Virus record (IMG/VR): IMGVR_UViG_3300025646_000032
Span: 1 to 64,000 of that record
Source: a virus
Length of the DNA stretch: 64,000 bases
Direction: 5' to 3' (one strand)
Each line of letters starts with the position of its first letter. The first letter of the stretch is position 1. A program made the translations under genes and the position numbers. Under the pieces are notes generated by a model. The model was not told the DNA's origin and ran no database searches. It saw only the letters and a program-made list of their open reading frames with translations. Positions 44,976 through 55,653 of this stretch are shown here, one piece after another.

Positions 44976-45061
44976 TGGTGCCCGTGGCCAGACTCGAACT
45001 GGCACGATCAATGATCGAGAGATTTTAAGTCTCTTGTGTCTACCTATTCCACCACACGGGC
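44976..45061 (-). tRNA. tRNA-Leu (anticodon UAA)
   Basis: 86 nt with encoded CCA. Acceptor stem GCCCGTG/CACGGGC, anticodon stem AGAGA/TCTCT around loop CTTAAAA, long variable arm (CGATC-ATT-GATCG), T arm GCCAG-TTCGAGT-CTGGC. All stems pair. Reads UUA (and UUG by wobble), frequent in this AT-rich genome. Confidence 0.97.
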
Positions 45062-45105
45062 TTTGAGCAAGGATGATCCTTAAATTGTAGTAAATAGAAA
45101 TTTTC

Positions 45106-45182
45106 TGGCGCGCCCGGCAGGACTCGAACCTGCAACCCTCGGCTTAGAAGGCCGATGCTCTATCCAGTTGAGCTACGGGCGC
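45106..45182 (-). tRNA. tRNA-Arg (anticodon UCU)
   Basis: 77 nt with encoded CCA. Acceptor GCGCCCG/CGGGCGC, anticodon stem TCGGC/GCCGA with loop CTTCTAA, T arm GCAGG-TTCGAGT-CCTGC. Reads AGA/AGG. It begins only about 6 bases after the poly-T of the gp32 terminator. Confidence 0.97.
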
Positions 45183-45219: not shown

Positions 45220-46137
45220 TTAGTCGTCGGATGCAAGTTTGGCAAAGTAGGATAGTGTATCCTCTTCGTCGTCACTCTCCACAACAGGTGTTACAGGTGC
45301 CTTAGGGGCAGTAGTAACAGACTTTAGAAAAGCCTCATCTTCTGCAGCGTCTTTGGCAGATACTGCTTCTGCTGTACCTACATTAGAACTGCTAGCACCA
45401 AGTACCATATTGAGCTTAGACTTTAACTCGTCATAAGACTTAAAGTTCTTAGGATCAATTAGTTCTTGTAATGAGTGCTGTTGATTCCAAATAGCCTCAA
45501 TAGCTTCATCGGTATCAGCAACAGGTGATGGTGCTTCAAACTCTGACTTGTCATAGTTACGATAACCTTCCACTTGACGAATCTTAATCTTAAAGTTTGC
45601 ACCTTCCCAAAAATCAAATGGGTTGATTGGATTCTCATCTTCAAATGTAGGGTTCATCATATCATTGAGCTTGTCAAAGATCTTTTTACCGTACTTGTAA
45701 AGGAAAACTTTTCCTTCATTAGCAGGGTTACCTGGATCACTTACAACCAAGATGTTTGAGAAGTAAGCAAGTCGACGCTTCTGTTTACGAGCAATCTCCT
45801 TGTTAGCCTCAACACCACTGTTCCAAAGCTCACTATTGAGTTCGGATACAGGATCACTTTGGTTTAGTGTAGTGAGAGAGTTTTCGATGTACCACTTTCC
45901 AGTAGGACCTTGGAATCCGTGATCCCACCTACGCACCCAAGGAAATTCCTCTCCTTTAGTTGGGGGTAAGAAACGAACTACGGCAAAACCATTACCGGCT
46001 TTGTCTACTGTGGGTTTCCATTCTCGATCATCGCCCTGCGATTGCTGGACGGGGTTAGAAATCTTCTCAACCTCTTTCATTAGCTTATCAAAGCCGCCGC
46101 GAGATTTACGAAGATCAGATAGTGAATTAAACGACAT
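45220..46137 (-). CDS. 32: Single-stranded DNA-binding protein (gp32)
   Basis: Coats single-stranded DNA in replication, recombination and repair. 305 residues (T4: 301). An N-terminal cooperativity-type basic start (SLSDLRKSRGGFDKLMKEVE), an OB-type core (GNGFAVVRFLPPTKGEEFPW; WDHGFQGPTGKWYIENSL; NILVVSDPGNPANEGKVFLY; FDFWEGANFKIKIRQVEGYR) and an acidic C-terminal tail (VESDDEEDTLSYFAKLASDD) for partner binding. The zinc-binding His/Cys set of T4 gp32 is not present; there are no cysteines in that segment. A consensus promoter lies upstream inside the neighbouring gene and a strong terminator follows. Confidence 0.96.
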   Translation of the reverse strand: MSFNSLSDLRKSRGGFDKLMKEVEKISNPVQQSQGDDREWKPTVDKAGNGFAVVRFLPPTKGEEFPWVRRWDHGFQGPTGKWYIENSLTTLNQSDPVSELNSELWNSGVEANKEIARKQKRRLAYFSNILVVSDPGNPANEGKVFLYKYGKKIFDKLNDMMNPTFEDENPINPFDFWEGANFKIKIRQVEGYRNYDKSEFEAPSPVADTDEAIEAIWNQQHSLQELIDPKNFKSYDELKSKLNMVLGASSSNVGTAEAVSAKDAAEDEAFLKSVTTAPKAPVTPVVESDDEEDTLSYFAKLASDD

Positions 46138-46163: not shown

Positions 46164-46352
46164 TTACGTTTTATTACGTTCTTCATAGTAAAGTTGATCT
46201 AGCATTTCATCTAGATCGTCATCATGTTCACCACTATGTGATGAGTCATAATTATATATGTTATTTATGATTTTGTCAAGCGATTTTTTACTTTTTTTAA
46301 CAACTTTTTTAATTCTCTTATCGCGATCAAAATTGCGATTAGTTTTGGACAT
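46164..46352 (-). CDS. Small charged protein between gp59 and gp32
   Basis: 62 residues, unrecognised. A basic half (NFDRDKRIKKVVKKSKKSLD) is followed by an acidic end (SGEHDDDLDEMLDQLYYEE). The DLDEMLDQL segment could act as an acidic binding helix. Starts within the last codons of gp59 (14-base overlap) without a clear ribosome site. A perfect sigma70-like promoter for gp32 and a hairpin lie inside this reading frame, so part of its sequence is shaped by regulatory needs. Reality as a gene is likely but not certain. Confidence 0.55.
   Translation of the reverse strand: MSKTNRNFDRDKRIKKVVKKSKKSLDKIINNIYNYDSSHSGEHDDDLDEMLDQLYYEERNKT
46196..46217 (-). promoter_or_regulatory. Hairpin in predicted gp32 leader
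   Basis: Perfect 7-bp stem GATCTAG/CTAGATC with an 8-base loop, 59-80 bases upstream of the gp32 ATG and inside the predicted transcript. It is followed by an AT-rich, repeat-like stretch (two ACGTAATA units) running to the ribosome site AAGGAG. The arrangement resembles the autogenous translational operator of T4 gene 32. Confidence 0.45.
46251..46279 (-). promoter_or_regulatory. Consensus sigma70-like promoter for gp32
   Basis: TTGACA (46279-46274), 17-base spacer, TATAAT (46256-46251) on the minus strand, all consensus. Predicted start near 46244, giving gp32 a leader of about 107 nt. It lies within the coding sequence of the 62-residue gene. Confidence 0.8.
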
Positions 46353-46935
46353 TGCCGTACACCTTCTTCAAAGCGCTCTTGTGCTTGTTAAAAACTTTGT
46401 CCTTATCGAATTTAACAAACGGTTTATATTTTTTAATTAATAAACAATAGTCTTGTAACACAAAATCCTCTTTATATCTATCTACAAAAGGTAACAATTT
46501 TTCTAAAATTACAACAGTCTCAATCTGTATTTCTTTGGACATTAAAAGTTTAAAAACTAAAGGGTGTCCAGTATCGTATACTGCTGACTCTAATCTACGA
46601 ATTTCTTGTTGAAGTAGAATAGTGTCTAAATCAGTTTGTAAAGTATACAACAACCTTTGCCGTTTTGTCAACCAGAAATTGTATGTTTCTGTAGCTTCTG
46701 TATCAAATATACCGCCCCATTGATTACCGCTTACAAAGTTAGCTACTAGAAAGTCTATGATTTCATTCTTAGTATAGTCTCTAGCTAGTTTACGCATAGC
46801 AATAAGATCTTTTCTTTTTAAGAATGTTTCTCGTTTACCTTTTACTGCACCTTTATACTTGGTAATGTCATAATCAGGTGTTGTAAAGTGTAATCGTAAA
46901 GAAAGATACAGCCTGTAAACGTCAAAAGGATCCAT
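46339..46935 (-). CDS. 59: DNA helicase loader (gp59)
   Basis: Loads the gp41 replicative helicase onto gp32-coated forks. 198 residues (T4: 217). The N-terminal MDPFDVYRLYLSLRLHFTTP-DYDITKYKGAVKG is diagnostic, with FLKRKDLIAMRKLARDYTKN and FLVANFVSGNQWGGIFDTEA also conserved. It is mostly helical, as in the T4 structure. The order 33-59-32 is as in T4. ATG at 46935 preferred over a TTG two codons upstream; the start lies right after the gp33 stop. Confidence 0.95.
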   Translation of the reverse strand: MDPFDVYRLYLSLRLHFTTPDYDITKYKGAVKGKRETFLKRKDLIAMRKLARDYTKNEIIDFLVANFVSGNQWGGIFDTEATETYNFWLTKRQRLLYTLQTDLDTILLQQEIRRLESAVYDTGHPLVFKLLMSKEIQIETVVILEKLLPFVDRYKEDFVLQDYCLLIKKYKPFVKFDKDKVFNKHKSALKKVYGNVQN

Positions 46936-46937
46936 AT

Positions 46938-47213
46938 TCAATCCAAAGGAAGTTCGTTGCTTTTTTTCTCCTTGAGCATATTCAAATTCAATGCTTCGTT
47001 TTTAATTTTCTCTTTCAATGATGTGCTCAATAGTTTATTCACACTCTCAAGTTCAATTTCATTTCTTTCACAATAGTCAACTAAAACATCCATGTGACTA
47101 AGCTGTGTGCGTAATACTTGTTTCTCAATATGTTGAGAAAATTCTGTTGATGTATTAAATTTTTTTGTGATGAGAAAAATATCTGTTACTTTCTCGTCTT
47201 TAACTAATTCCAT
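46938..47213 (-). CDS. 33: Late transcription coactivator (gp33-like)
   Basis: 91 residues. In T4, gp33 bridges RNA polymerase and the sliding clamp to activate late promoters. Assignment is by position upstream of gp59 and gp32 and by the helical layout HMDVLVDYCERNEIELESVN-KLLSTSLKEKIKNEALNLN, which follows the gp33 core pattern. The end NELPLD is a short hydrophobic-acidic tail at the place of the T4 clamp-binding motif. The AAGGAA ribosome site precedes the ATG. Presence of TATAAATA boxes elsewhere in the window fits a gp33-dependent late system. Confidence 0.68.
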   Translation of the reverse strand: MELVKDEKVTDIFLITKKFNTSTEFSQHIEKQVLRTQLSHMDVLVDYCERNEIELESVNKLLSTSLKEKIKNEALNLNMLKEKKSNELPLD

Positions 47214-48063
47214 TATGATTCCTTTTTAGCCAATCGGCAATATACTCATGCACATCAGAAGGACAATTGATATATGGTTTTATGCACTGCGTAACCTGTG
47301 CCTCACCCGGTTTATCAAAAGAGTAAATAATGTCAGTATTAAAATCTTCTGCTATTGACATAATACTCTGTGGCAGTCCTTTTCCTAAATGTACGTCTGA
47401 ATGTTTTCTTTCATCGATCAATAACTGTAACAAGCCCTGGACAACATCATAAACATGAGTAAAGTCACGTTCTTTTTTTCCAGAACCAAAAACAGTTAAA
47501 GGACGACCATTTAAATAATCGGTTTTAAATTTTCTAATTACAGTGCTATATTCTCCATAATTAGCTTCACGTGGTCCGTACACGTTATAGAAAAACAATT
47601 TAGTACAAAAGATACCATATTGTTCTTCAAACATACTAATCATATCTTCACATGCTTTTTTACTCCAAGTGTAAGGATTTTTTGATTCCTTGTATTGTGT
47701 ACTTGAAGATGTAGCAAAGTAAAGTCTACAATTAAAAATTCTCGCCCAATCACATACCGCCGCGGTTGTAGAAATGTTATTAGAGATTGTGTCGCCAGGA
47801 TAATCAATCGAACGTCTTACTCTGGGACTGTTTGCTAAATGAAAAATAGCATTTGGAGGCGGTATGTGATGTGTAAAGGGCGAGAATCTAGATACATCTT
47901 GAATAAAATACCTAACATTAGGATGCTGTATAACAAAGTCTCCGGCTCTTTTATCATCAATAACTGTAACAAAGAAGCCTTCGTATAACAAACGTTCTAC
48001 AAGATGCGAGCCTATAAAGCCACATCCTCCAGTAACAATTATGTTAGGAATTGTATTAATCAT
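47200..48063 (-). CDS. NAD(P)-dependent sugar epimerase/dehydratase (extended SDR)
   Basis: 287 residues. The nucleotide-binding motif TGGCGFIGS (residues 11-19), IFHLANSP (73-80), SSST (119-122) and the catalytic Y131-x3-K135 (YTWSKK) define an extended short-chain dehydrogenase acting on nucleotide sugars. YNVYGPRE and FGSGKKERDFTHVYDVVQG are the substrate-side motifs, most like UDP-glucuronate decarboxylase or 4-epimerases. It likely makes a sugar nucleotide for the glycosyltransferases. A consensus promoter places the start of transcription at or next to the ATG. Confidence 0.88.
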   Translation of the reverse strand: MINTIPNIIVTGGCGFIGSHLVERLLYEGFFVTVIDDKRAGDFVIQHPNVRYFIQDVSRFSPFTHHIPPPNAIFHLANSPRVRRSIDYPGDTISNNISTTAAVCDWARIFNCRLYFATSSSTQYKESKNPYTWSKKACEDMISMFEEQYGIFCTKLFFYNVYGPREANYGEYSTVIRKFKTDYLNGRPLTVFGSGKKERDFTHVYDVVQGLLQLLIDERKHSDVHLGKGLPQSIMSIAEDFNTDIIYSFDKPGEAQVTQCIKPYINCPSDVHEYIADWLKRNHNGIS

Positions 48064-48656: not shown

Positions 48657-48684
48657 ATTTTTCTCCTTTAATACAAGGGCCCGT

Positions 48685-48990
48685 TTGATAACAAGGTGGA
48701 ACCCATACCCCGTCTAGCTTAAGCAGCTAGAGCAAATACCTCATCGTTGGCATTTATTTGTTTTGTTGCTTTCACAGTAGCTTCCGCACTGGTCCTCCAC
48801 TTTCCTACTTATTACCTGTCGAACCTGTTCACCCCCATCAGATATGCACTTACCGCAATTTGTTCCAATCAGATGATACCTATCAGTATCGTTTTCTCTT
48901 ACATTGTTACAAATACACAAATACATATCTGGTGGAGGTGGCGGGAATCGCACCCGCGTCCAAGTAACCTTTCAGTCCGTTTCATCGAAC
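48685..48990 (-). ncRNA. ssrA: Transfer-messenger RNA, circularly permuted two-piece form
   Basis: Order on the minus strand: acceptor piece, intervening segment, coding piece. The acceptor piece ends GGACGCGGGTGCGATTCC-CGCCACCTCCACCA, with CCA at 48932-48930. The coding piece starts GGGGGTGAACAGGTTCGAC at 48836. The 7-bp acceptor stem GGGGGTG/CACCTCC forms with one GU pair. P2 forms between AGGTAAT (48817-48811) and GTTACTT (48968-48962). The tag frame runs from GCA (48769) to TAA (48721-48719): ATKQINANDEVFALAA. Its stop sits in the loop of a 6-bp P5 hairpin TCTAGC/GCTAGA. The 93-nt intervening piece is framed by GATATG/CATATC. Outer ends are approximate. The T-loop has G at position 55. 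Confidence 0.93.
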
Positions 48991-49059
48991 AAGGTATTTA
49001 TAATAACACCTTTTGTTTAATATTAAACAAGGTATTTATAATAACACCTTTTGTTTAAT
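48988..49059 (-). repeat. Duplicated 34-bp promoter element upstream of tmRNA
   Basis: Two identical 34-bp copies (48988-49021 and 49026-49059). Each contains a TATAAATA late box (49002-48995 and 49040-49033) embedded in an inverted repeat AAACAA-AA-GGTGTT/AATACC-TTGTTT. Located directly 5' of the tmRNA acceptor piece and 3' of the dioxygenase gene. Confidence 0.9.
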
Positions 49060-49068: not shown

Positions 49069-50091
49069 CTAAATTGCTATTTTTTGGCCTTCGTTGTATT
49101 CTTGTAATCTTTGCTGATCCACTAAACTAATAAACTCAGCGCCTGTCATTACTTTTCCATTTACTGTATAACTATCCCAATGTCCATGATTAGGATACAG
49201 TTTGTTCATATAAGAAACACTTCTCCACATCTTTCTCATATTACCATCTTTAATGTTGGTTGGACGTGCATGTAATGTAATATTTTGATCCATATACACA
49301 ACCTGTCCGTCTTGCCAATCATGTTCGTATATGTATTCGGGTTTATTTATTTGTTCCCAGAGATGCTCTTTAAATTTTAAACTGTCATACTCTGTCATAC
49401 CCTCGAAGTGAGAAAACAACGAGCCAGGAAAATGAATACCTTTAACACCGGCTGATGTTTCTTGCTGTAACTTACAAGACATACCGTCTATTGGAACCTG
49501 ATTGTAACGAACTAATGCTTTTTGTTCGTCAATTAAATCTCCAGTAAAGTTGACTCTATTCCACTTGTAAACACTACGAAGTTCATCTACCATTGTTTTG
49601 TCTTCTTGGCTCAGTTTGTCGTAAGCCTCGGCAGTACATAAGAAACAAGTTTGTGAATTTTCTGAATGTTCTACAGATACTAAACCAATTACTCGCGCGC
49701 CGTCATCAACAGCAACCTGATCACTATGCCAACCCAACGAGCCGTTGGCAAATAAACCTTTTGGGCGTCCTTTCTTACCTAGCTGATAGGTAACAACATT
49801 CATGGTGTCCCGATATTCGGGCTCAATCTCGCTTGAGACGTTGAAGATATCTAGTCGTAAACTGGACCAATGTTTACCCATGTTGCTAAGAGACACTGCT
49901 CGATTAACAATAGACTGTGCACCTTCGCCCCAACTATTTTGGACTTCCCAGGTTCTTTTTTGATTTAATTTTTGTTTAACTAGGACGACTGCTTTGTTTG
50001 CTACTAGTTTGCCCAAATCCTCGATGTGCTCATCAGAGTAAATGTCAAAGTCGTATGCTTCAGTTGCCCCGTTTAAGGATTTCGTTTTCAT
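49069..50091 (-). CDS. TauD/TfdA-like 2-oxoglutarate-dependent dioxygenase
   Basis: 340 residues. The iron site is H122-x-D124 (LGWHSDQV) and the distal H274 (NITLHARPTN), with R290 (KMWRSVSY) for 2-oxoglutarate. The length, the fold order and GLVSVEHSENSQTCFLCTAE match the TauD/TfdA family of Fe(II) oxygenases. The substrate cannot be predicted; taurine specificity is not implied. Chosen start ATG 50091; a TTG at 50109 would extend it by six residues. Overlaps the nuclease gene upstream by 32 bases. It precedes the tmRNA promoter region. Confidence 0.82.
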   Translation of the reverse strand: MKTKSLNGATEAYDFDIYSDEHIEDLGKLVANKAVVLVKQKLNQKRTWEVQNSWGEGAQSIVNRAVSLSNMGKHWSSLRLDIFNVSSEIEPEYRDTMNVVTYQLGKKGRPKGLFANGSLGWHSDQVAVDDGARVIGLVSVEHSENSQTCFLCTAEAYDKLSQEDKTMVDELRSVYKWNRVNFTGDLIDEQKALVRYNQVPIDGMSCKLQQETSAGVKGIHFPGSLFSHFEGMTEYDSLKFKEHLWEQINKPEYIYEHDWQDGQVVYMDQNITLHARPTNIKDGNMRKMWRSVSYMNKLYPNHGHWDSYTVNGKVMTGAEFISLVDQQRLQEYNEGQKIAI

Positions 50092-50728
50092 ATGCGTCCC
50101 GTGCTTCAAAAAGTTTTTCTACAAAGTTATCTCTCTTTTGTAAAAACACTATGGGCTCTTCTCCTTCAACTGCCATTAAAATAACAGTTTGAGATACGGG
50201 TATGCCAGTAAGTTCCTCAAACATAATTGCGTAAGCGCTACATTGTATGAAGTAGTTCTCGCACTGTGAGGGTGTCTTTCTTCTCTTTGATGTTTTAAAA
50301 TCAATAACAGATAACTTGCCATTATATTCTGCGATACAATCAACTTGTCCTGCAAGTCTTAAATGTTCACTATAGAGCTTTGTCTCCAATGCTCTAATAT
50401 TATTTATATCGTCTAACAAAGGGCGAAACTTACGAAACATTTCTTTGTCAATATAATTTAGATGAGTATCCTCTGTCAACTTATTGTCAAGAATGTCTTC
50501 ACAAAGTTTGTGAATACGAGTACCACGTGTCGTGGCTTGTTTAGAAATTTTATCTGCTTCAGCCTCGCCAATACGTTGACGCCAGGCCTGAATAAATGGT
50601 TTAGATTTGTGAGATAAAATTGTAGTAACAGAAGGCAAATGATCACCGGACGGAGTAACATACCTCCGTCCGTTTTCTGTATTTACTTGTTTGAGTTTAG
50701 GTACTTCTACTAGATTATGAATAAACAC
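50060..50728 (-). CDS. PD-(D/E)XK exonuclease-like protein (RecB/Cas4 nuclease fold)
   Basis: 222 residues. The core nuclease motifs are GTRIHKLCEDIL (motif with H), AGQVDCIAEYNGKLSVIDFK-TSK (D and DxK of PD-(D/E)XK) and QCSAYAIMFEE (the Q-x3-Y motif of the RecB-family). Such proteins trim or recombine DNA; in marine T4-like phages this gene is common near the replication region. No iron-sulfur cysteine cluster of Cas4 type is evident. Two bases downstream of the gene at 50731-51093. Confidence 0.8.
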   Translation of the reverse strand: MFIHNLVEVPKLKQVNTENGRRYVTPSGDHLPSVTTILSHKSKPFIQAWRQRIGEAEADKISKQATTRGTRIHKLCEDILDNKLTEDTHLNYIDKEMFRKFRPLLDDINNIRALETKLYSEHLRLAGQVDCIAEYNGKLSVIDFKTSKRRKTPSQCENYFIQCSAYAIMFEELTGIPVSQTVILMAVEGEEPIVFLQKRDNFVEKLFEARDAYENEILKRGN

Positions 50729-51207: not shown

Positions 51208-51960
51208 TTAGGTGCCGTATTCATCCTCATATTTTAGCCTTGCTTCAATGTATTCTTTAACAAGATCAGAACGTACAATATCGTCTGTTGTAAACTCAAC
51301 AATTTTAAATGATTTCATATTTTCGGCGATAACCATGAATTTTTGTAATCCTGACATATCATGTCTCTTATATAAGTCAGTTTGTCTAAAATCACCGCAA
51401 AAAATAACTTTAGTGTTTACACCAATTCGTGTCATTATAGAGTTTAATTCCATATCTGTCATATTCTGACATTCGTCTACAATAACAATAGAATTGTCTA
51501 ATGTAATACCCCTAACAAAAGACGTACACATAAAGTCCATATATTTTTGTTCAATTAAACGTTGATATGGCTTTTCTTTTCCTGGAAATAGTTCTTGGCA
51601 CATTGCTTGATAAGGTAACGAATAAATTTCAATTTTATCCTTATCGTCACCTGGCAAGTGTCCAATTTCTCTTGATGGTACTGCTGAACGAACTAAGACC
51701 ACTTTTCGGTAAGGTGTTCCTTTCATGAGAACTTCCTCTAATGCTCGATACAGCGCAATATATGTTTTACCTGTACCTGCACAACCGTGTAATAAAAATG
51801 CTAAGGCATTTTTTGATTTGTATTGAGCAAAAAACTGTCCTTGCATTTCAGTTATTGCATCAATTGTCACCATGTCCTCGATTCTCATTCTGAGAGAATT
51901 GCTTGCTCCTGGTGCTGCACCTTGAGTGTGTACTAAGTCTAGTGCTTTACGTTTTGCCAT
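51208..51960 (-). CDS. phoH: PhoH-like ATPase
   Basis: 250 residues. Walker A GCAGTGKT (59-66), Walker B IVIVDECQ (158-165), then NTKVIFCGDFRQTD (sensor-like) and the final VEFTTDDIVRSDLVKEYIEA, all standard for the PhoH family. PhoH is widespread in marine phages and often associated with phosphate stress, though its activity there is not settled. The ATG at 51960 has GGAG about 9 bases upstream. A longer frame to 52014 would run through a terminator hairpin and is rejected. Confidence 0.93.
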   Translation of the reverse strand: MAKRKALDLVHTQGAAPGASNSLRMRIEDMVTIDAITEMQGQFFAQYKSKNALAFLLHGCAGTGKTYIALYRALEEVLMKGTPYRKVVLVRSAVPSREIGHLPGDDKDKIEIYSLPYQAMCQELFPGKEKPYQRLIEQKYMDFMCTSFVRGITLDNSIVIVDECQNMTDMELNSIMTRIGVNTKVIFCGDFRQTDLYKRHDMSGLQKFMVIAENMKSFKIVEFTTDDIVRSDLVKEYIEARLKYEDEYGT

Positions 51961-51988
51961 TTTGGTCTTTCTCCGTTTTTTAGATGAG

Positions 51989-52025
51989 AAAAGGGCAGAG
52001 TGCCTATTTGACATTCTGCCCTTTT
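51989..52025 (-). terminator. Terminator hairpin upstream of PhoH
   Basis: Minus strand: AAAAGGGCAGA pairs with TCTGCCCTTTT (11 bp, plus two inner pairs after one mismatch), loop TCAAATAGG. The A/T ends make it potentially bidirectional. It lies between the stop of the gene at 52050 and the PhoH ATG at 51960. Confidence 0.85.
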
Positions 52026-52693: not shown

Positions 52694-54145
52694 TCACTTA
52701 GCCGTAAAAACCTTAACACCATAGTGTTTTTCAAAGTCTTTTGCATTCTCTTCGGTGTTAACAATGGGCTGTCCTTTAATATTTAAACTTGTATTAAGTA
52801 ACATAGGACACCCTGTTTTTTCTTTCCATTTTGTAAGTAAGTTATACAAACCTGGGTGTTGCAATTTTGTTACTGTCTGCACTCTACTGGTTCCGTCTTG
52901 GTGTACAATAGCAGGGTATTTTTCAGGCTCTTTTGCTTCCACAATATATTGCATGTAAGGAGAGGTGAAGTGTGGACCAACTTTAAAATGATCTCTAACA
53001 TCTTCCTGTCTAATAACAGGAGCAAAAGGACGATATTCCTGTCTGTTTTTAACTGTGTTTACTTTGTCCTTCATCTCTATACCTCTAGGATCAGCGAGAA
53101 GAGAACGATTACCTAAAGCACGTGGACCAAATTCAGCGCGGCCATTTGCCACACCACACATACCGGTTTTAATCAATTCTTTAAACACCTTGTCTACAGG
53201 ATACTCACCCTCAATATTATGCCCCAAGTAAGGAGTTAACCAATTTGCTCTTTCTTTTGTTTGTGCTAAAATAGCACCTAACGAAGAGCCAGCGTCACCA
53301 GGGTTAGGCATAATCCAACTACTCTTAAAATAATCTGGAATAATTCTATTTGCCAGACAATTAAGAGCACACCCTCCCATAAAAACTAAATTTTCTTCAC
53401 CTGTCAGTTCTTTTGCTGTTGTAAGTATTCTTTTTAGATATACTTCATAAACCTTTTGTGTGGCAGCAGCAACATCAAAATAATCTTCCTCAGTAAGTTC
53501 TGGCTTCCACCATCTAATACCCCTGTGAAAATTATCGTGTAAAACAGATAGTTCCATAATTTCATCATAAAACCTATCAGGATTGCCGTAAGCAGCCATG
53601 CCCATTAAAATGTATTCGTCCTCATTTGCTTTTAGGCCAACTCTGTCTGTAAATGCACTGTAAAACAATCCTAATGATTTAGGATACTTCCAGCGATTTA
53701 AACATTTTAAGTCTGTATTAGTACCTTTCCAAATTGAGGTTGTGGTCCACTCTCCAATAGCATCAACAACTAAAACACAAGCGTTTGTAAAATGAGAAGT
53801 ATAATAACCAGCAGAAGCGTGACTTGCATGATGGTCTCCCCATACAACAACACTGTCAAAGATACCATAGCGTTCCATGTATTTCTTAGGTGATAACCAA
53901 ATGTCTTTTTGACCAGCATAAAGTTTTCTTGTTGCTTTAACAAGAGGGTTTTCATACCAGTAAATTTTTTCAGGATATCCATATTCCATCGCCTCCCCAA
54001 TTAAATAGTAATGTAAATCTTTATCGTTTTTCTTTCTAGAAAATCTTTCAGAGTGAGATGCAAAAAGAATATCATTTCCTTTCATCACTGTCAAAGATCC
54101 GTCATGTGTTCCTGCAGCTACACCCCAAACTACTTTATCACTCAT
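52694..54145 (-). CDS. Carbamoyltransferase (NodU/CmcH family)
   Basis: 483 residues. The N-terminal Kae1-like domain has GTHDGS (12-17) and the hallmark DHHASHASAGYYTS (104-117); then LVVDAIGEWTTTS, FMGGCALNCLANR and the C-terminal YrdC-related region GRAEFGPRALGNRSLLADPR, EYRPFAPVI. NodU/CmcH enzymes transfer carbamoyl from carbamoyl phosphate to hydroxyls of sugars or antibiotics. This version likely decorates a glycan. ATG at 54145 in an ATGA overlap with the upstream radical SAM gene, with GGAGG in front. Last enzyme of the cassette. Confidence 0.92.
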   Translation of the reverse strand: MSDKVVWGVAAGTHDGSLTVMKGNDILFASHSERFSRKKNDKDLHYYLIGEAMEYGYPEKIYWYENPLVKATRKLYAGQKDIWLSPKKYMERYGIFDSVVVWGDHHASHASAGYYTSHFTNACVLVVDAIGEWTTTSIWKGTNTDLKCLNRWKYPKSLGLFYSAFTDRVGLKANEDEYILMGMAAYGNPDRFYDEIMELSVLHDNFHRGIRWWKPELTEEDYFDVAAATQKVYEVYLKRILTTAKELTGEENLVFMGGCALNCLANRIIPDYFKSSWIMPNPGDAGSSLGAILAQTKERANWLTPYLGHNIEGEYPVDKVFKELIKTGMCGVANGRAEFGPRALGNRSLLADPRGIEMKDKVNTVKNRQEYRPFAPVIRQEDVRDHFKVGPHFTSPYMQYIVEAKEPEKYPAIVHQDGTSRVQTVTKLQHPGLYNLLTKWKEKTGCPMLLNTSLNIKGQPIVNTEENAKDFEKHYGVKVFTAK

Positions 54146-55653
54146 TCCCATTTCCTCCAAAAACTTGTAAACTCAGGGAACGTGTCTAAAAAGTTAGTTC
54201 CCCTCCTTTCGTCGTGTTGTTTGAAAAACTTAACAAAGTTCTTTCTTGCAATATCAAGTTTTTCTCTAGGCATATTTCTTTCACGCATCCATTCTAGATT
54301 ACGTTTAACTTTGGCAATCTCAAAGTCGTAAAAGCCTACAAAATCATCTACATTAGAATTGTGTTCCATAAACTCGATTGCTTCTTCTAAGTATTTTTCA
54401 AATTCTTCTGGCAAAGTATTAATACACTGCCATTCAGGATTTCTTAAAAGTGGAACATCGAACCAAATACGTTGTCTCGGGTGCACTTCAAAGTCCGGGT
54501 GAGTGTTATAAGGATCGTAGATGGGGATCTTTTTAACACCTTGGTTTTGTCTTGAATACTCGTGTCGTAATTCTAAAATATACTCCAAGAATTCCTTAAA
54601 ACTCGTTAAACTTAAACTGTTAAATGTATTAATAAATGTAATGGTTGTATTACATGTATCCCCTAAAATACGTTCAACATTTGTTTGTAGTGTGTCATAA
54701 TTTAAACCATTTCTAATATATTCTGCTTGTTTTCCTGCTCCGTCCAAACTTACAAATACTGCAAAGTTTTTCACTGCCATATTTACATACCAGTGATTGC
54801 CTGAACCGGGATTAAATCTGTCGCTTTGCCAAATTTGTATTTCTTCTAGTTTTTGAAGTTTTTCAACAAACATGTCCATCAGTTTAGGTTTATCGGGACA
54901 CATATTGCTTGTAACACTTACTTCTAGCCAAGCGTTTGGATTTTCATAAATGTAATCCAACACCTTGTAAGTATTACTATCCATTAATGGCTCTCCTCCA
55001 GTCATACGAAAAACTTCTAGTGTTTTATATAACTCTGGCCACCATTTCCAAAAAGCAGTTACATAAGGATTTTCATCCTGTGCAACTTTAATAGGCATTA
55101 AATCAATTTTTTCTAAATGAGCAATGTCATTGTGTTTCGTAGAATGCCCGTCTTGTCCAATAATATTGTAAGGACCTTCTTTTTTAACTTCTCGTTCCCA
55201 TGTAGTAGACAAGTGAGGGGAACAATAACTGCATTTAAAGTTACATGCCTGATTAAAATTAACTTCAACATAACGTGGATTAATGTTACCAATATCTAAG
55301 GTTTCGATTATATCTTTTCTGGCATTTTGAGCCCAGTATTCTCCACTTCGGTAAATACGATCACTTCTTCCCCCAACGTCCTCAATCTTCCAACAATAAG
55401 AACACCCAGCTGGACGTTTTCCTTCCAACATCATTTTGCGTTCTTCTTTTTTCTGTTTTGTATTGTGCAGAGCAGAAGGATTGTCTTGTATTTCTAAGAC
55501 ATCAATTTTATGTGTAGGGGGGTGATAACAGCTATGTGTTTGTCCGTTAGTAAGGTGCATGGATACCTGCGCCCACTTTGCGTAACACATGGTTTTAGAA
55601 ATATTTCGAAGCTGCTTTTCTGCCTGATCAGCAGCGCTGCCATAATCACTCAT
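54142..55653 (-). CDS. Radical SAM protein (cassette copy 1)
   Basis: 503 residues. The iron-sulfur motif C137-x3-C141-x2-C144 (QACNFKCSYC) and the SAM-side FRMTGGEPLMD are canonical, followed by VSVTSNMC and FVSLDGAG strands of the partial TIM barrel. A 130-residue N-terminal domain has conserved cysteines C23 (MCYAKW), C42 (SCYHP) and C84/C87 (CSYCW), which are shared with the paralogue at 61039-62532. The substrate is unknown. No SPASM-type C-terminal cluster is visible. It is coupled by ATGA to the carbamoyltransferase. Confidence 0.88.
   Translation of the reverse strand: MSDYGSAADQAEKQLRNISKTMCYAKWAQVSMHLTNGQTHSCYHPPTHKIDVLEIQDNPSALHNTKQKKEERKMMLEGKRPAGCSYCWKIEDVGGRSDRIYRSGEYWAQNARKDIIETLDIGNINPRYVEVNFNQACNFKCSYCSPHLSTTWEREVKKEGPYNIIGQDGHSTKHNDIAHLEKIDLMPIKVAQDENPYVTAFWKWWPELYKTLEVFRMTGGEPLMDSNTYKVLDYIYENPNAWLEVSVTSNMCPDKPKLMDMFVEKLQKLEEIQIWQSDRFNPGSGNHWYVNMAVKNFAVFVSLDGAGKQAEYIRNGLNYDTLQTNVERILGDTCNTTITFINTFNSLSLTSFKEFLEYILELRHEYSRQNQGVKKIPIYDPYNTHPDFEVHPRQRIWFDVPLLRNPEWQCINTLPEEFEKYLEEAIEFMEHNSNVDDFVGFYDFEIAKVKRNLEWMRERNMPREKLDIARKNFVKFFKQHDERRGTNFLDTFPEFTSFWRKWE

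Follow-up and report, generated by a model that had tools for sequence, protein, structure and literature searches.

A predicted Bfd-like minigene nested in the intervening sequence of a phage permuted tmRNA gene

What is the intervening sequence (IVS) of a phage two-piece tmRNA gene good for? Such genes have been catalogued as RNA genes and the IVS regarded as a discarded spacer, whereas at the locus considered here the spacer appears to be a conserved protein gene. The locus lies in a stretch of 64,000 nucleotides (the window), positions 1 to 64,000 of the IMG/VR virus record IMGVR_UViG_3300025646_000032, which has 70,028 bases in all. We think it very probable that this marine-type virus is a T4-like phage with a complete beta-type permuted tmRNA, whose IVS doubles as a minigene resembling bacterioferritin-associated ferredoxin (Bfd), in a slot used recurrently by phages and with late expression suggested.

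The identity of the RNA gene can be stated plainly. A complete circularly permuted two-piece tmRNA gene occupies the minus strand at 48670-48998, with the acceptor piece encoded upstream of the coding piece (Table 1). An earlier reading, made from the letters alone (the sequence-only reading), had placed a phage-encoded permuted two-piece tmRNA at 48685-48990, and this is borne out on the minus strand: the Rfam model RF04321 (tmRNA_permuted) matches 48719-48991 in cmscan with 121.8 bits (E 2.8e-23, cutoff 47), and ARAGORN independently calls a permuted tmRNA at the locus. Among the alpha, beta and cyano models the beta type scores highest (RF01850, beta_tmRNA, 48669-49041, 98.4 bits against a cutoff of 84). 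Of the two models which that reading had named for a check, alpha passes (67.8 bits, cutoff 50) and cyano stays below its cutoff (34.4 bits, cutoff 70); its hint of a SAR11 or picocyanobacterial lineage thus gives way to the better fitting beta type. Both RF04321 and RF01850 match over their full length and above their cutoffs, the difference from the beta model being that the window IVS is longer (79 unaligned letters as opposed to 15) and predicted to be coding.

Table 1. Features of the tmRNA locus and its neighbourhood (window coordinates)
Feature	Position	Strand	Basis
gp32 single-strand DNA binding protein; synteny marker and query for finding relatives	45220..46137	-	homology
gp59 helicase loader; synteny marker	46339..46941	-	homology
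gp33-like late-transcription coactivator; synteny marker	46938..47213	-	Pfam PF16805 1e-21
tmRNA coding piece (5' tRNA-like plus mRNA-like); starts GGGGGUGAACAGGUUCGAC at 48836, 3' end approximate	48670..48836	-	Rfam, ARAGORN
Tag reading frame ANDEVFALAA plus TAA	48719..48751	-	ARAGORN
Nested ORF, 61 codons plus stop; codons 1-30 (MYLCICNNVRENDTDRYHLIGTNCGKCISD) fill the IVS, the rest enters the tmRNA coding piece	48741..48926	-	sequence, purifying selection, Bfd-like profile match
Intervening sequence (IVS), 93 nt	48837..48929	-	Rfam alignment, folding, computed boundary
tmRNA acceptor (3' tRNA-like) piece; ends ...CACCUCCACCA at 48930, 5' end approximate	48930..48998	-	RF04321/RF01850 matches, ARAGORN, computed boundary
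Two perfect 34-nt direct repeats, 48988-49021 and 49026-49059	48988..49059	-	sequence
TATAAATA box, one per 34-nt repeat	48995-49002, 49033-49040	-	
Sigma-70-like TTGACA-17-TATTAT, 11 of 12 consensus; overlaps the upstream repeat	49066 to 49038	-	
PDDEXK exonuclease; synteny marker	50060..50728	-	homology; same order in Melnitz
PhoH, after the PDDEXK exonuclease	51208-52014		

The CCA 3' end, the 5' start downstream of it and the pairing acceptor stem, all pointed out in the sequence-only reading, can be seen directly in the letters. The stem has 7 bp (GGGGGUG/CACCUCC) and includes G3.U70, the alanine identity pair. Among 22 distinct acceptor stems from phage relatives, 17 have G3.U70, and at pairs 4-6 both sides vary with the pairing mostly kept, so that the stem is maintained across the break. 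Counted from the homologous resume codon, the tag reads GCC AAC GAT GAG GTA TTT GCT CTA GCT GCT TAA, that is ANDEVFALAA; the ALAA ending given earlier therefore stands, and the length comes down from the proposed 16 codons to 10. The tag stop codon does sit within a 6-bp hairpin, UCUAGC/GCUAGA, as had been noticed, and the predicted fold of the precursor RNA is far more stable than that of shuffled sequences (z = -4.8, 0 of 100 shuffles as low). As a side observation, the T-loop in the window (48930-48970) and in about 30 relatives is TGCGATT, not TTCGATT (position 55 changed from U to G), and in relatives with this loop the D-loop region before UCGA is mostly 1 nt shorter.

What kind of phage is this? 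Homologues of terminase, baseplate, gp32, gp59 and gp33 identify a T4-like myovirus of the Kyanoviridae type, and because terminase identity to isolates reaches at most ~48%, with marine Synechococcus and Pelagibacter myoviruses at the top, the phage is distant from all isolates compared. Its gene order, PhoH, PDDEXK nuclease, (others), tmRNA, (others), gp33, gp59, (others), gp32, is that of Melnitz, a cultured Methylophilales phage of the Kyanoviridae (PMC9004378; MZ577097; locus L336, L-numbers here denoting the loci of relatives used for comparison). Also in the neighbourhood are tRNA-Arg(TCT) and tRNA-Leu(TAA) genes directly downstream of gp32 (44976-45182; the same pair occurs in L058, L059 and L062), and auxiliary genes for a nucleotide-sugar epimerase (47200-48063), a TauD-like dioxygenase (49069-50109) and a carbamoyltransferase (52694-54160).

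A phage-borne permuted tmRNA as such is of an already known kind, found in the same gene neighbourhood as published. Indeed, 53 two-piece tmRNA structures have been described in isolate phages, with Melnitz included and 50 classed as marine or aquatic (Buchholz et al. 2022, PMC9004378), and the permuted form prevails among tmRNA-bearing relatives in IMG/VR (187 permuted against 25 other tmRNA calls, from several searches of which some were selected for permuted features), so the earlier view that a viral copy is unusual does not hold. Melnitz resembles the window phage in its permuted tmRNA, in an upstream TATAAATA and in having an open reading frame in its IVS, and differs in its alpha-type tmRNA, in its tag (ANDNYVPVDYALAA) and in an unrelated IVS protein, MFKWLSKTRLVV... 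(IVS ORF peptide MFKWLSKTRLVVITRDYF...); the published description makes no mention of the IVS ORF. We also found permuted beta-type genes, mostly unannotated, in Stenotrophomonas phage DLP6, in Pseudomonas phages SM1, PA_L9, UF_RH6 and FBPa45 and in Xanthomonas phage XacN1, and a permuted tmRNA gene in Xanthomonas phage X1 too; in DLP6 (102838-103059), SM1 and XacN1 (L347, L349) the unannotated gene lies between listed genes. The beta type consequently does not name the host, since these gammaproteobacterial phages carry beta-type tmRNAs though their hosts are not Betaproteobacteria.

The tag does not name the host either. An attempt to assign one failed, as the exact 31-nt tag region has no match in 84,980 bacterial and archaeal genomes, and we abandoned the notion that the tag derives from the host and matches its own. 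A degenerate pattern, TAAATGC followed by codons for ANDEVFA, likewise gave 0 matches in those 84,980 genomes and is present in dozens of viral contigs, and the valine at tag position 5 may be a phage signature. Other relatives have unusual tags or tags that depart from ...LAA, namely ANDNSYRMVA, AANDAFFDGEVLPLAA and AANDDYYEGLRLAA (among L111, L112, L114; L168; L064), and such phage tags may not be ordinary degradation tags.

We can now turn to the IVS, whose open frame, like the late-promoter box discussed below, escaped the sequence-only reading. The ATG of the nested frame comes 3 nt after CCA, its 30 codons reach exactly the last IVS base, and translation would then continue into the coding piece as far as the stop at 48741. 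A sceptic would see here an ordinary phage permuted tmRNA whose IVS is only RNA structure, a hairpin aiding processing, and whose frame is chance or a relic; after all, in the predicted fold the window IVS prolongs the acceptor stem as a long, imperfect hairpin, it has no Shine-Dalgarno sequence, its AUG is inside the predicted stem, and many relatives have simple stem-loops or very short spacers in this place, with no ORF. We nonetheless find this extremely improbable, given where the substitutions fall. Between the window and L149, both with the frame in the IVS, differences occupy 12 of 13.8 synonymous and 5 of 67.2 nonsynonymous sites, and third codon positions account for 12 of 17 differences (P = 0.002 under equal rates). 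Five IVS variants pooled give a pN/pS of 0.09, with 12, 22 and 82 pairwise differences at codon positions 1, 2 and 3, and the ratio lies at 0.09-0.25 against every homologue tested and at 0.10-0.25 against free-standing ones; in the latter, which lie away from tmRNA genes and need no IVS hairpin, the protein is conserved all the same. In addition, conservation is higher in the IVS than in the tmRNA pieces on either side (78% identity between window and L149, as against 60% for the acceptor piece and 56% for the coding piece), and several other, unrelated coding families occupy the same slot. Judged by this pattern of change, the IVS frame is a conserved protein-coding gene under purifying selection at the protein level, and its translation is predicted.

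The encoded mini-protein has a CxC...CxxC cysteine pattern, made up of a MYxCxC start and a G[TS]xCGxC motif, and the cysteines are invariant in 23 members. A profile of these 23 finds only Bfd chains at significant scores in the PDB (E 3e-4 to 6e-4), and the Pfam family Fer2_BFD is found in 18 of the 23 (best 1.2e-5). Taken alone, the window member reaches E 0.11 with Fer2_BFD (13.3 bits, below the Pfam cutoff of 26) and does slightly better with zinc_ribbon_6 (0.0075), and because it falls below the Pfam cutoff we call the protein Bfd-like and not a Fer2_BFD member. Its likeness to Bfd (PDB 4e6k, 6e6r) consists of the MYxCxC N-terminus, the G[TS]xCGKC motif and a profile alignment over the whole mini-protein; the difference is that the window member has 17 residues between the cysteine pairs, ~14 fewer than Bfd in the alignment, and that a cluster is only predicted here. 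An AlphaFold model was of too low confidence to be used (pLDDT 55). The assignment to Bfd is thus a remote one, and the mini-protein is predicted to bind a metal or iron-sulphur cofactor, either [2Fe-2S] or zinc.

Where else does this protein occur? A scan of IMG/VR with the IVS peptide returned 49 relatives, and a second Bfd-like subfamily, MVICSCRDIRDSQY..., has 25 there; a tblastn comparison of the Bfd-like peptides with isolate phages gave no usable match. Homologues sit inside the IVS of permuted tmRNAs (the window family, L149, L168 and L188-L204), just upstream of a permuted tmRNA (L173, L175 and L205-L211), or free-standing with no tmRNA nearby (L152, L157, L164-L167, L169-L172 and others). 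At a further set of loci a Bfd-like segment shares its frame with the beginning of a longer protein, helicase-like or other (L151, L154-L156, L158, L162; L150, L163), which may reflect a true fusion or a misplaced start. The same mini-protein is found in L149 and L145, yet the best older tmRNA model is alpha for the former and beta for the latter; together with an IVS that outconserves its flanks, this indicates that mini-protein and tmRNA have partly separate histories.

Could the minigene then be the selected unit, with the tmRNA a captured host remnant that has no rescue function and serves as a landing site or persists as a genomic scar? It is true that mobile DNA is known to insert preferentially into tmRNA genes, that the IVS shared by the window and L149 is better conserved than the tmRNA, and that no SmpB was found in the 70-kb phage record, which may be incomplete. 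We regard such a remnant as very unlikely, though, because the functional elements are all intact (G3.U70, a tag frame ending LAA, a covarying acceptor stem), the position of the tmRNA is conserved in many phages that have no minigene, and a late-promoter box stands at fixed spacing. The phage tmRNA most likely works in trans-translation, and since no SmpB turned up in the phage record, it would use that of the host.

The Bfd-like frame is by no means the only one of its kind. For example, IVS ORFs also encode a zinc-ribbon-like protein from an unrelated family (pN/pS 0.21), a 24-residue peptide with a single membrane span (0.40), the second Bfd-like subfamily (0.12) and the Melnitz-type protein (0.21-0.38 between its divergent members, where an 8-codon insertion keeps the frame), so that several of these families too are under purifying selection, and among single cases one matches PGDYG (PF14083, above cutoff) and one phrog_13558 (1e-12). 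We counted 65 IVS ORFs of at least 20 codons, which give no frequency because some of them were retrieved with a pattern that demanded, behind CCA, both a Shine-Dalgarno-like GGA and an ATG; at the junction TGAT|GGG, 32 of the 65 stop at TGA and 25 use GAT as the last IVS codon (57 of 65 do either). Of the 37 unique IVSs with at least 60 nt in sets that were assembled without regard to the IVS, 5 carry a Shine-Dalgarno sequence, an ATG and a filling ORF, where shuffles lead one to expect 0.4 (maximum 3 in 500 shuffles). The window family, having no Shine-Dalgarno sequence, is not counted in these five and adds four further IVSs. Many other phage IVSs, such as those of Pseudomonas and Xanthomonas phages, are plain hairpins or spacers of a few nucleotides with no ORF, so the slot is often but not always used. 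On this comparison of loci, phage permuted tmRNAs offer in their IVS a slot where small phage genes, unrelated to one another, nest time and again.

When would the locus be expressed? Each of the two direct repeats upstream of the acceptor piece contains one TATAAATA, the T4 late-promoter consensus. Of 126 upstream contexts, 32 contain it (expectation 0.009 per context), as do 17 of 29 among the relatives found by gp32; one 10-nt bin, located 71-80 nt ahead of the CCA end, takes 26 of the 33 matches, and the single copy in Melnitz lies ~74 nt upstream of that end. A box at so fixed a distance is a predicted T4-type late promoter and suggests late expression of the tmRNA.

For Melnitz, early expression has been proposed, with retagging or degradation of host proteins in the early phase of infection as the main role of the phage tmRNA (Buchholz et al. 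2022, PMC9004378). In keeping with such a role, the upstream repeat overlaps a sigma-70-like promoter that agrees with the consensus at 11 of 12 positions, which makes early plus late expression possible, and the tag ends in ALAA as host degradation tags do. Nevertheless, we think that early retagging is unlikely to be the main role, since in both the window and Melnitz the element that lies nearest and keeps its position is the predicted late box, which points to late expression, and several phage tags have no LAA ending (for example, ANDNSYRMVA); the conserved box argues for at least a late component. A glutamine riboswitch in Melnitz (RF01739, 52.8 bits, L336 3680-3728) is situated between the end of the tmRNA match and the gene for the gp33 coactivator; from that position gp33 is a likelier target of its control than the tmRNA, which differs from what was published.

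How might RNA and minigene work together? As we see it, the tmRNA would be made late in infection from the TATAAATA directly upstream, tRNA-type processing would remove the IVS from the mature RNA, and this IVS doubles as a gene, its 30-codon Bfd-like frame running from 3 nt after CCA to the exact 5' end of the coding piece and probably being translated into the mini-protein. Ribosome rescue and retagging are reasonable predicted roles for the phage tmRNA. The frame has no stop codon inside the IVS, so processing would cut the nested message, and the released IVS would be a nearly leaderless message with its AUG 3 nt from the 5' end, exactly in frame and with no stop. This raises a bolder and, we admit, rather improbable idea, namely that nested ORF and tmRNA are alternative fates of one late transcript: the intact precursor would yield the mini-protein, and RNase P-type processing would yield tmRNA and a stopless IVS message, whose stalled ribosomes would be rescued by the released tmRNA with the tagged product ...CISD-A-ANDEVFALAA. 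If true, it would amount to a self-coupled switch between a rescue RNA and a minigene.

Nested cargo in tmRNA genes has precedents. The 2025 tmRNA database (PMC11915505) reports a tRNA gene (tRNA-Ala) in one permuted IVS, which it singles out as unique, and in a second IVS a repetitive element, and mentions no protein gene in a permuted IVS; the former resembles the present case in having IVS cargo and differs in that the cargo is a tRNA. Group I introns with homing endonuclease ORFs in tmRNA genes (PMC11915505) are alike in nesting a protein gene in a removed segment, and differ in being self-splicing and lying in the T-loop, whereas the window has an IVS between two pieces and a tiny cargo that is no endonuclease. 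Literature searches on tmRNA IVSs with ORFs or small proteins, and on tmRNA with Bfd, returned nothing relevant, with subscription papers mostly outside the search and priority thus not proven; as far as the literature searched shows, a protein gene nested in a permuted-tmRNA IVS and recurring across phages is undescribed.

What does this mean for phage biology? In many phages the same slot holds different small genes (Bfd-like, zinc-ribbon-like, single-membrane-span and others), and the layout of a gene within an RNA gene hides short proteins from annotation. The late timing suggested here offers an alternative to the published early-expression proposal for phage tmRNA, and the arrangement raises the question of whether translating the nested gene competes with processing the rescue RNA.
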